From positions 1-38,946 of the IMG/VR virus record IMGVR_UViG_3300030382_003005: 38,946 bases of DNA. One strand, 5' to 3'. Positions 11,421 to 19,687 of the stretch are shown here, one piece after another (the stretch's first letter is position 1; each line of letters starts with the position of its first letter). The stretch comes from a virus. The notes under the pieces are model-generated. The model saw only the letters and a list, made by a program, of their open reading frames with translations, did not search any database and was not told the origin of the DNA. A program made the translations under genes and the position numbers.

Positions 11421-11837
11421 ATGCCAGACAGTGAACTATTTATTGAGAAATATGTAGAAACAGGCGACATACTCTGTTCTCTTCAGGAGGGAGGGTATAA
11501 GCTGAACAAGACTACTGGCTACAACCTCCGCAGAAAATTCCAGGATGAAATACAGAAGAGGGTACAAGAGCGTTTGCGTGGAAGTGGACCAAAGGCTTTG
11601 AGTGTCGTTGAGCAATTGATGATAAGTGCTGATAGCGAAACTGTTCGTTTGGGTGCAGCAAAGGATATGCTTGATCGTGGAGGTTTTAAGGTTTGGGAGG
11701 ATGAGGGGATTGGAAAGACAGTTGAGGAGATGGAACAACAGTTAGTTGCACTAATTGGCAAAGATGGTGCAAAGATGTTAGTGAGTTCAGTCAGGACTCG
11801 TAAATCAATAAGTGGACCAGAATTGGCAGAGGCATAA
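11421..11837 (+). CDS. terS: Terminase small subunit
   Basis: 138 residues from the ATG at 11421. The frame is open from 11277, but that position is the -35 box of the promoter and cannot be the start; GTG 11379 is the other option. An N-terminal HTH-like part (ILCSLQEGGYKLNKTTGYNL) is followed by QERLRGSGPKALSVVEQLM and DSETVRLGAAKDMLDRGGF, the phrase typical of small terminases that tile along DNA and hand it to the large subunit. Basic/charged C-terminal helix. First gene of the late operon; its TAA overlaps the next ATG (TAATG). The large subunit gene lies five genes downstream. Confidence 0.78.
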   Translation: MPDSELFIEKYVETGDILCSLQEGGYKLNKTTGYNLRRKFQDEIQKRVQERLRGSGPKALSVVEQLMISADSETVRLGAAKDMLDRGGFKVWEDEGIGKTVEEMEQQLVALIGKDGAKMLVSSVRTRKSISGPELAEA

Positions 11838-12655
11838 TGGGAAAAACTTTGATAAATCCTAAGAACCAGGTAACGTATGGTGGTGATGACGAAATTCCAC
11901 AAGAAAACTACTACAATGGAGTATTCTTTTCAAATCCAGCAGTAGCTGCGATGTTCGCCAATAACAATTGGAGTACCACATTGCCTGTCGGGCCTCAGTC
12001 TGATCCTGAACCTGATGACGATGACGATGACGATGACGATGACGAAGATCTACAAAACACCGCAAGACCAAACCGCCCACAACGACCAAGACGAACTCCT
12101 CCAGGTTTTCATTATGAAGGAGATACACTTGTTCCAAATGAAGGTACAGTTTATAACGAAGAAACAGGCGAATGGGATATAAATCCACCAAAGAAGGATG
12201 AACCGACAAATCAACCAGATGGAGATGGTGGAACTGGTGATGGCGGTACTGGTGATGGCGGTACTGATGATGGTGGAACTGATGACGGTGGGACTCCTTC
12301 AGGAGGAAGTGGTCAGCCTGATACAGATGGAAACGATGACGATGACGATGAGGATGAGGGTGAGGGTGGAAATCCACATTGGTCTAACCCTTCATTAGGT
12401 GGTGGTGGGTTTGAAACGGCTCCTGGCGTAGAACCAACAGGAACCTTTCAAGAAACAATCCAAGAACATAAAGATAAGCAACTTTCTGCAGCATATCGTG
12501 CTAGAGATTTAGACATGGGAGATATGTCAGGCATAGTTGGTAAAGGTATAGGATGGCAATCTCGTGAAGGAGCAAGTACATCATCGGGGAATTTAAGACG
12601 AAGTATTAGGAAGCTCGCTCCTTCATTAATCAATAAAACAGCTAAGAAAGAATAA
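11837..12655 (+). CDS. Acidic low-complexity protein, paralogue A, with C-terminal LRR tag
   Basis: 272 residues. The N-terminal ~52 residues (MGKTLINPKNQVTYGGDDEI... NNWSTTLPVG) are nearly identical to the next gene. The middle is disordered: an Asp tract (~60-69) from (GATGAC)n, a Pro/Arg patch, five GDGGT/DDGGT repeats (129-153, 15-bp DNA period, 12221-12295) and another Asp/Glu tract. The end has IGWQSREG and SGNLRRSIRKLAPSLI, a tag shared with three other proteins near the terminase. Probably a virion or packaging-associated protein, since it lies between the terminase subunits; no enzymatic motif. Lengths of the tandem repeats should vary between relatives. Confidence 0.7.
   Translation: MGKTLINPKNQVTYGGDDEIPQENYYNGVFFSNPAVAAMFANNNWSTTLPVGPQSDPEPDDDDDDDDDDEDLQNTARPNRPQRPRRTPPGFHYEGDTLVPNEGTVYNEETGEWDINPPKKDEPTNQPDGDGGTGDGGTGDGGTDDGGTDDGGTPSGGSGQPDTDGNDDDDDEDEGEGGNPHWSNPSLGGGGFETAPGVEPTGTFQETIQEHKDKQLSAAYRARDLDMGDMSGIVGKGIGWQSREGASTSSGNLRRSIRKLAPSLINKTAKKE
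12221..12295 (+). repeat. In-frame 15-bp tandem repeat (five copies)
   Basis: Five copies encoding G/D-D-G-G-T in the middle of acidic paralogue A. Each unit is 15 bases with synonymous and Gly/Asp variation, a typical slippage or unequal-recombination tract. Confidence 0.75.
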
Positions 12656-12669
12656 TGTAACGAGGCACA

Positions 12670-13332
12670 ATGGGAAAAACCTTGATAAATCCTAAGAACC
12701 AGAAAACGTATGGTGGTGACGACCAAATTCCAGACGAAAACTACTATAATGGAGTATTCTTTTCAAATCCAGAACTAGCTCAGATGTTCAGAGATAACAA
12801 TTGGAATACCACATTGAAAGTGGGAGATCCTGAACCTGAACCTGAAACTGAAACTCCGAGAGGAGGGGCAAAAAAAGATGGGTCTAAGAAGAAGTGGCAT
12901 TGGATTGATGATGATCGTATTCCTAGCCAAGCAGAGATTGATTTTTATGCAAGTTTCGATGAAGAAGGGAATCCTACAGAAGAAACCACGATAACACAAG
13001 ATCATCTCGATGAAATTGGCATGGGTGGAGGAGATGATGGACAAGGATTTACAGTAGATGATGTTGGTCCTGGCGTAGAAGTAAATGCTGATGAAATACC
13101 AAAAGAAATGCCAGGATTTACTTCTGAGCATAACCCCTACATAGATCCCATGACAGGAGAAAAGAAGTTTCTAACTAGAGAGCAATGGAGTGCATCTATA
13201 GGAGAAGACGAAAAATATGGTAAAGGTAGAGGGTTCACCGCACCTGAAGGTGGAAAAGTAAAATCAGGTACTTTAAGGCGAAATATTAGGAAGATGGCTC
13301 CCTCATTGATCTCTGGTAGTAGAACATCATGA
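12670..13332 (+). CDS. Acidic paralogue B with C-terminal LRR tag
   Basis: 220 residues. Begins MGKTLINPKNQKTYGGDDQI, matching the N-terminal ~52 residues of paralogue A with few changes, and ends SGTLRRNIRKMAPSLI plus a short tail. The middle is unrelated to A: Glu/Pro/Thr-rich, with KKWHWIDDDRIPSQAEIDFY, then ENPYID-like and MTGEKKFLTREQW segments. It looks like a duplicated gene whose centre has been replaced or has diverged. Function unknown; role with terminase or virion inferred from position. Stop overlaps the next ATG (ATGA). Confidence 0.7.
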   Translation: MGKTLINPKNQKTYGGDDQIPDENYYNGVFFSNPELAQMFRDNNWNTTLKVGDPEPEPETETPRGGAKKDGSKKKWHWIDDDRIPSQAEIDFYASFDEEGNPTEETTITQDHLDEIGMGGGDDGQGFTVDDVGPGVEVNADEIPKEMPGFTSEHNPYIDPMTGEKKFLTREQWSASIGEDEKYGKGRGFTAPEGGKVKSGTLRRNIRKMAPSLISGSRTS

Positions 13333-13637
13333 CCGAAGATCAGGTAAAAAGTTACGATTCTGATGGAATGATCTATGTGAGGCCGACTTCAGGCAAATAT
13401 GCTAATGATAGTACAAGCTCCTTCATAACTTGCCTTGCAGAGTTTGAGACTATTCAAGAAGCCGATGATTTTAAAGAAAAGTGGGCAAAGGCATCGAATT
13501 CTAAAGAAGTACGCAAGTTTCTTCTAGATAAACATGAATTAGATCATCCAGAATGGTTTAGGCTCTCTGGTAGATTGAGAGATGAATATATTGATTACTA
13601 TCATGACACGGTAACAAATGAGAACAATATTCAATAA
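13329..13637 (+). CDS. Hypothetical small late protein
   Basis: 102 residues, acidic, alpha/beta by eye: SFITCLAEFETIQEADDFKE, a helix KEVRKFLLDKHEL, then PEWFRLSGRLRDEYIDYYHD. No family recognised. Overlaps the previous gene by ATGA, and its end is overlapped by the small 54-residue frame. Confidence 0.6.
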   Translation: MTEDQVKSYDSDGMIYVRPTSGKYANDSTSSFITCLAEFETIQEADDFKEKWAKASNSKEVRKFLLDKHELDHPEWFRLSGRLRDEYIDYYHDTVTNENNIQ

Positions 13638-18569: not shown

Positions 18570-18578
18570 GGAGATAAT

Positions 18579-19004
18579 ATGAGTCTTTTTAGTGATTGGT
18601 CAACCAAAGCCAAAACATACTATGATGAAAAGGTAAAGCCAGACGGAGGAACACCAAAGTCATTTTTCGATAGTGGGAAAAGATTAGTTACTAAAGCATA
18701 TAATGAAAGATGGACTCCAGGTAAAACACCAGCGTATGCGGAGTCACATGCGACACAACAAATAAGAGGAATACTGAGTGATCAATTGAATCCATTGAGA
18801 AGTGCAGCAGCATCTACAGTAGAAGGAGCAAAACCAGGCCAATCTGCAGAAGATTTACTCTATGGTTCCCGAAGAGGAATACAGGGTAGAAGGAAATCTG
18901 GTAAAAGCAATAGTGAGGACTTGAGAAGGACACCTTATGCAATGAAGAATGATACTTTACTAACACAAGGGCAAAAAGCCAAAAAGTTAAAAGGGAAAGT
19001 ATAG
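18579..19004 (+). CDS. Small tagged protein C (LLYGSRRGIQ...LRR)
   Basis: 141 residues, basic, no family recognised. A helical N-terminus (WSTKAKTYYDEKVKP) and a segment (THATQ-like) QIRGILSDQLNPLRSAAAST are followed by LLYGSRRGIQ (93-102) and EDLRR (113-117). The first phrase recurs identically in the next gene; the LRR part recurs in two acidic proteins upstream. AAGGAGATAAT gives a clear start. Located between large terminase and portal, so probably a head or packaging component carrying a localisation tag. Confidence 0.65.
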   Translation: MSLFSDWSTKAKTYYDEKVKPDGGTPKSFFDSGKRLVTKAYNERWTPGKTPAYAESHATQQIRGILSDQLNPLRSAAASTVEGAKPGQSAEDLLYGSRRGIQGRRKSGKSNSEDLRRTPYAMKNDTLLTQGQKAKKLKGKV

Positions 19005-19012
19005 GAGATAAT

Positions 19013-19687
19013 ATGAAAGTATATACAGAAGTAAACTACATCTGGAAAGATGATAAATTAGTTCAAACTGATTCCAAGTCATTTGACTATGAGGGAGAAG
19101 TTTCCTTATGCCACAATAGAACAAGGCGAGTAGGGAGTAAGTGGACAGGTTACAAAACTATTAATATCCCACATACCCATAAATCAATAAATGATATTAA
19201 ACCTAAAGGTGGGACTACAGCAGAGGCCACAAATGCAGCTAACGAAGCAGTTCATTCTGGAGCTACTGCAATTACTACAGGGATCAAGAAAATAAAAGAA
19301 ACTGTAAGTAAAGGGCCTACTGGTGGAACAGCGAAAGATGTTGCAGATGCTTTATACGGAGGTTCTACTAAAGACCTAGTTGAAAAGGCACAAGAAACTT
19401 ATGTTAATTTAGAAACCTCCTTTAATAAAAATAAGGATGATCTTGCACAAGCATTATTTGCTCCTACTAAGAACAAACTTGAGGAGACTGCAACATCAAT
19501 TATAAACGAGAATATAAATAAGAATAGGCCAACTAGTAATGTGAATGGGCAAGAAGATGAACTGCTTTATGGTTCACGAAGAGGAATACAAATGCAAGAT
19601 GAAGGACAAAGAGCTTCAAGTGGAGGATTACGAAGAGATATACATGTATTAAGAACATTGTCAGGTAAAGCAAAACCAAAAGGATAG
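19013..19687 (+). CDS. Small tagged protein D (LLYGSRRGIQ...LRR)
   Basis: 224 residues. An N-terminal beta-rich domain (TEVNYIWKDDKLVQTDSKSF, YEGEVSLCHN, TGYKTINIPHTH) is followed by Ala/Thr-rich helices (ATNAANEAVHSGATAITTGI, KLEETATSII) and ends with LLYGSRRGIQ (184-193) and SSGGLRRDI (202-210). LYGG at ~114-117 may be a degenerate extra copy. Shares the tag with protein C. No enzyme motif. AGGAGATAAT start, 8 bases after gene C. Likely a virion or head-assembly protein. Confidence 0.65.
   Translation: MKVYTEVNYIWKDDKLVQTDSKSFDYEGEVSLCHNRTRRVGSKWTGYKTINIPHTHKSINDIKPKGGTTAEATNAANEAVHSGATAITTGIKKIKETVSKGPTGGTAKDVADALYGGSTKDLVEKAQETYVNLETSFNKNKDDLAQALFAPTKNKLEETATSIINENINKNRPTSNVNGQEDELLYGSRRGIQMQDEGQRASSGGLRRDIHVLRTLSGKAKPKG

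Follow-up and report, generated by a model that had tools for sequence, protein, structure and literature searches.

A genome-specific C-terminal tail shared by small proteins around the terminase of a marine podovirus: a candidate docking motif for virion proteins

Five small proteins encoded near the packaging and portal genes of a marine podovirus (short-tailed phage) end in related, short, basic C-terminal tails. The tails are shared beyond chance, are placed at the C-terminus, co-diverge, and are swapped on conserved N-terminal modules. With moderate confidence, we interpret this shared ending, from sequence patterns, as a portable motif through which small virion proteins would dock in the portal, tail channel, or core. 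The phage is represented by a 38,946-base virus record, analyzed in full and hereafter called the window, to which coordinates refer unless another genome is named.

The original prediction had named four open reading frames with their motifs, and all four, including the motifs, are present in the window. Protein A (272 aa, 11837..12655, + strand) shares an N-module with protein B and has an acidic low-complexity middle, followed by the C-terminal tag SSGNLRRSIRKLAPSLIN (codons from 12584). Protein B (220 aa, 12670..13332, + strand) is a paralogue of A with the tag SGTLRRNIRKMAPSLIS (codons from 13264); the endings of the two proteins read, as predicted, SGNLRRSIRKLAPSLI and SGTLRRNIRKMAPSLI. 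Protein C (141 aa, 18579..19004, + strand) carries LLYGSRRGIQ (18855-18884), then SEDLRR and DTLLTQG, and protein D (224 aa, 19013..19687, + strand) carries the identical LLYGSRRGIQ (19562-19591), then SSGGLRRDI and LRTLSG. A fifth tagged ORF of 54 aa (13618..13782, + strand), overlooked in the original prediction, ends in KGKTLLTTGLTR and thereby carries the core of the tag; its counterparts in L015, L020, and L022 measure 67, 69, and 73 aa. The proposal that QSREG of A occupies the slot of GSRRG did not survive alignment of A with B, which places GKGIG/GKGRG there; QSREG comes slightly further on, by a few residues, and counts as weak evidence.

The surrounding genes are those of a podovirus packaging, head, and tail region: TerS (11277-11837), the terminase large subunit TerL (17115..18569, + strand; PF03237/PF17289), a T7-type portal or head-tail connector (19691..21340, + strand; PF12236, phrog_332), a scaffold-like protein (21606-22409), the major capsid protein (22559-23581), a tail tubular A-type adaptor (24156..24788, + strand; phrog_394), a tail tubular B-type protein at the nozzle position (24792..28184, + strand; phrog_376 tail protein), and internal virion genes. 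The portal, adaptor, and nozzle-position proteins are candidate docking partners of the tags. The gap between TerS and TerL also encodes a large basic protein of 828 aa (13784-16270; up to 1245 aa in relatives) without a family match, in which the first ~260 residues are conserved and the middle is variable; in one clade, it bears C-terminal segments reminiscent of the tags, e.g., GRRRKSGLSGKGNASIIN. Immediately 5' of TerL, 16267-17118 gives a weak endonuclease VII match (phrog_1035, E 0.0028), and T7, too, has an HNH gene (7.7), which adjoins its portal gene. The protein at the scaffold position matches both phrog_3742 (E 9e-49) and phrog_458, annotated as protease (E 4e-29). Right after the tubular B-type gene lies a short tail-fibre or adhesin-like protein (28181-28633; phrog_12032, E 9e-28), and in BPP-1 a "short tail fiber protein" (bbp23) sits between TerL and the portal.

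We compared the tails of A, B, C, and D by Smith-Waterman alignment, with 2000 shuffles for each pair. No shuffle scored as high as A/B (score 95), C/D (score 70 for the last 60 residues, best shuffle 51), or B/D (score 49), and two did so for A/D (score 46); A/C and B/C were weak, both with a score of 39 (30/2000 and 51/2000 shuffles as good, respectively). A hidden Markov model of the D-type tail, run against all six-frame ORFs of the window, recovered D, C (E 3e-7), B (0.0098), and A (0.011), at the C-terminus in every case and with nothing else below an E-value of about 7; in the reverse search, the A/B tails recovered D (2e-4). Because the N-terminal ~50 residues of A and B are also alike (body score 276, shuffle maximum 90), these two proteins are paralogues and not two independent tag carriers. 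For C and D, codons of the identical decapeptide differ at 5/10 positions, so that this identity is not a recent DNA copy, and a recent DNA duplication was ruled out as its source.

Scans with D, TerL, and portal queries gathered about 170 IMG/VR loci with 91 distinct TerL-portal intervals. Lack of the motif in related phages would have counted against the original prediction, and it applies only to the exact SRRG...LRR spelling, which does not extend beyond the closest contigs (L002, L003, L007, and L013); the tag as such is general. In most intervals, between one and four of the small proteins encoded have a basic tail at the C-terminus with a short hydrophobic core, and many genomes bear a version of their own that recurs on two or three proteins, including GGGYGKKRVGEQSRGQMNLTGSRRSSILTG (L071), RGRGAANQTQGQSATLLTG (L068), and YGTILTSGKGVEDEATTSSSLLGG (Baldr). 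A core motif, defined as [ST][LIMTV][LIM][TNS] within the last 30 residues, occurred in 85 of 141 distinct small-protein tails, with about 40% of the small proteins lacking this expression, vs 42 of 501 internal 30-mers; shuffling of the 141 tails gave a mean of 6.6 and a maximum of 14. The motif was found in none of 22 enzymes encoded in the same intervals and in only 2 of 305 C-termini of TerL, portal, scaffold-like, MCP, and p89 proteins. Net charge averaged +4.3 per 35 residues in the tails vs -2.6 in the region preceding them. Tagged genes are restricted to the TerS-portal cluster, and three TerL relatives (TerL 45-54% identical) that have another, longer portal (about 705-745 aa) encode no tagged gene, major head genes being annotated in two of them; this absence is a small negative control. 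As a separate observation, genes for acetyltransferase-like or similar enzymes lie amid the tagged proteins in many TerL-portal intervals (e.g., L047:4860-5297 and L053:3928-4353), and GNAT genes adjoin the portal in SP6, phiKMV, and BPP-1.

Tails within a genome are matched to each other. When tails on unrelated bodies were paired within the same genome, the mean score was 45.5, vs 26.8±1.7 when the partner was drawn from another genome (maximum 34.8 among 1000 between-genome permutations; clustering at 95% TerL identity left 42 genomes, and clustering at 90% gave the same picture). In these genomes, 48 of 55 pairs were more alike in their tails than in the 50 residues before them (p 2e-8). 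The effect is uneven: only 30% of the pairs within a genome score above the 95th percentile for pairs between genomes, and in clade L024-L043 the two tails hardly rise above random likeness.

Tail swapping is seen on protein D. This protein starts with MKVYTEVNYIWKDDKLVQTDSKSFDYEGEV, and the structure model gives its N-module of 33 residues (19013..19111, + strand) as a beta hairpin (pLDDT about 80-87), the one confident part of the model; helices come next and then a low-confidence tail that is probably disordered. This N-module is near-constant across genomes in which the D tails are wholly different. In 13 of 15 genomes, the D tail was closer to the tail of an unrelated neighbor than to the median D orthologue tail (p 0.002; choosing the best among as many as three neighbors biases this figure slightly). 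Similarly, the N-module of B was found again in L004/L006 and the middle part of B in L158/L159, in both cases joined to the tail type of the genome concerned. L192 encodes a fusion of the D module with an internal virion protein of the T7 gp14 family (PF24072, E 1.6e-8; L192:10001-10741). The fusion gene has a PF25675 nozzle gene on one side and, on the other, the gene that occupies the gp15 position; the same type of fusion occurs in L016, L193, and L194. A search with the D N-module against cultured phage records returned no match.

Among cultured phages, the family extends to HTVC010P, Baldr, epsilon15 gp3, and BPP-1 Bbp22. HTVC010P encodes two such proteins between TerL and the portal (KGRRSTILTGPLGVEEEAETEQKTLLGS and KGRSTTILTGPKGVEEETLTLGKRSLLGQ), both assigned to phrog_831 with no function annotated, and the same tail ends epsilon15 gp3 and BPP-1 Bbp22. 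The phrog_831 proteins (HTVC010P, epsilon15 gp3, BPP-1 Bbp22, and Baldr) resemble the tagged proteins of the window in their gene position between TerL and portal and in bearing a C-terminal tail, GRxSTILTG...KTLLG, which is found on two proteins in HTVC010P and in Baldr; only the core [ST]-[LI]-[LI]-[TNS] is common to them and A-D, and the flanking signature differs. Accordingly, A-D gave no match to the phrog_831 profile at E 0.01, which was matched by the Baldr and HTVC010P proteins, with L060 (1.5) and L045 (0.044) marginal. Searches of PHROG with most IMG/VR relatives returned nothing credible, and profile comparison of L071-type with window-type tails found no link; L071-type tails matched the STILTG family profile over a 10-column core only (E 0.008). 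We found no solved structure for any STILTG-family protein, and the literature searched does not mention these small proteins in the virion proteomes of epsilon15 or BPP-1.

Several other processes could generate shared endings on neighboring proteins. Gene conversion or tail exchange might simply copy DNA between neighbors without any common binding site, and the genes are indeed clustered, their N-modules and tails are shuffled as modules, and codon agreement at matching tail residues is slightly over expectation (316/631 or 50%, vs 269 or 43% expected from codon usage). Since this agreement is near what codon usage predicts, however, the tail match is held mainly at the protein level: synonymous sites are nearly randomized while residues still match, which points to selection on the protein keeping the tails matched. 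As enzymes of the same intervals, moreover, never bear the tail, we regard mere recombination as very improbable. A role in packaging also appears quite improbable, in which the tails would bind DNA, the terminase, or a maturation protease, and the proteins would be cofactors not kept in particles. The genes flank TerL, the tails are basic (the +4.3 net charge given above), and the scaffold-like gene also matches the protease-annotated phrog_458, all of which would suit such cofactors, but relatives with a 45-54% identical TerL and another portal lack tagged proteins, and charge alone needs no genome-specific hydrophobic core.

The remaining alternative concerns where a docking tag would bind. 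By analogy with encapsulins, it could load cargo while the prohead assembles, by binding to the scaffold or to the interior surface of the HK97-fold shell. That several proteins of the head cluster share a short, portable peptide at the C-terminus would fit this scheme, and HK97-type shells can use such peptides, as encapsulins do. We nevertheless consider it unlikely, as the TerL relatives with another portal lack a tagged gene yet have annotated head genes in two of three cases, the D module is tied to gp14, a portal/core protein, and the known analogue, T7 gp7.3, docks in the tail channel. The original claim that the ending is a docking or targeting signal on clustered small late proteins fared well in part: it is supported by the way tails diverge together within each genome, by their exchange on a conserved N-module, and by codons close to saturation, and a short basic C-terminal signal is the best reading, but the scaffold or capsid interior is unsupported as its target. 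A docking site in the portal, tail channel, or core is instead favored on circumstantial grounds, namely the T7 6.7/7.3-like gene position, the fusion of the D module with gp14, the gp7.3 precedent, and the absence of tags in the three TerL relatives with another portal.

Under this portal, tail-channel, or core docking model, a short linear motif would sit in a flexible, basic tail made up of the last 30-50 residues, and A, B, the 13618-13782 product, C, and D would carry the same genome-specific tail because all bind one virion component. The tagged proteins would be packaged in the virion, their tails lodged close to the end of the DNA, in the equivalent sites that a ring-shaped assembly of portal, adaptor, and nozzle offers, like the C-terminal loop of T7 gp7.3, and the differing N-terminal modules would bring differing activities to one place. 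The D module may engage core or ejection proteins, since it is fused to a gp14-family protein elsewhere. More tentatively, podoviruses with a T7-type portal might use a general, evolving virion address tag, i.e., a genome-specific C-terminal motif that co-evolves with one receptor site in the portal or tail channel, with changing sets of small proteins attached there and exchanged N-modules altering what is packaged beside the end of the DNA. In the phages examined, cultured pelagiphages and epsilon15 among them, annotation lists the small proteins between TerL and portal as hypothetical. Should the tail prove to be a virion address, packaged proteins of no known function could be predicted from sequence alone, co-variation could help to locate the receptor site, and the tag might be tried for loading a reporter into phage particles of laboratory strains.

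These tags can be set beside peptides known from other systems. Encapsulin cargo-loading peptides bind the shell, and T4 capsid-targeting sequences are N-terminal and removed by a protease; likened to the tags by description only, both are short and portable and direct various proteins to a single protein shell. A T4-type capsid-targeting sequence was rejected as a candidate because it requires an N-terminal signal and all tags here are C-terminal. Literature searches for shared C-terminal tags or motifs, with most subscription papers outside their scope, found no description, and searches with the motif strings returned unrelated words only. A docking tail is known from T7 gp7.3, whereas the literature searched appears to contain no description of such a tail serving as a single genome-specific tag for as many as five different proteins. 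In T7, the C-terminal loop of gp7.3 (residues 84-98) alone is ordered, with six copies in the tail channel (PMC11784390), and where adaptor and nozzle meet, a pair of nozzle subunits anchors each loop, whose K84/K85 lie on the DNA end (PMC11784390). This loop, KKSLSVARSSGGGIN, has basic residues followed by a small hydrophobic motif.

T7 gp7.3 (PF11653, phrog_1320) and gp6.7 (PF17570) resemble the tagged proteins in being products of small late genes just upstream of a T7-type portal, mostly disordered, with basic residues and then a short hydrophobic C-terminal motif. Gene position corresponds as well, with C and D between TerL and the PF12236 portal and T7 7.3 two genes before gene 8. The C-terminal loop is the docking part of gp7.3, and the tails here are basic and, in the D model, low-confidence. 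A-D gave no Pfam or PHROG match to the gp7.3 family, and hhalign of the STILTG family against gp7.3-like proteins gave a probability of 0.3%; homology having been looked for and not found, we describe the tags as probably working like gp7.3 and not as being gp7.3. T7 also differs in lacking a set of several proteins that bear one significant common tail, and a tail common to gp6.7 and gp7.3 was rejected as not significant (90/2000 shuffles as good). Small proteins of this gene position are found in particles of other phages: phiPsa17 virions contain gp6.7 and gp7.3 (PMC4517105), and phiKMV-like virions contain a 10.5 kDa protein encoded two ORF numbers before the connector (PMC5638911), which, matched by size, is probably of the phiKMV ORF29 type and thus another small protein of this gene position.
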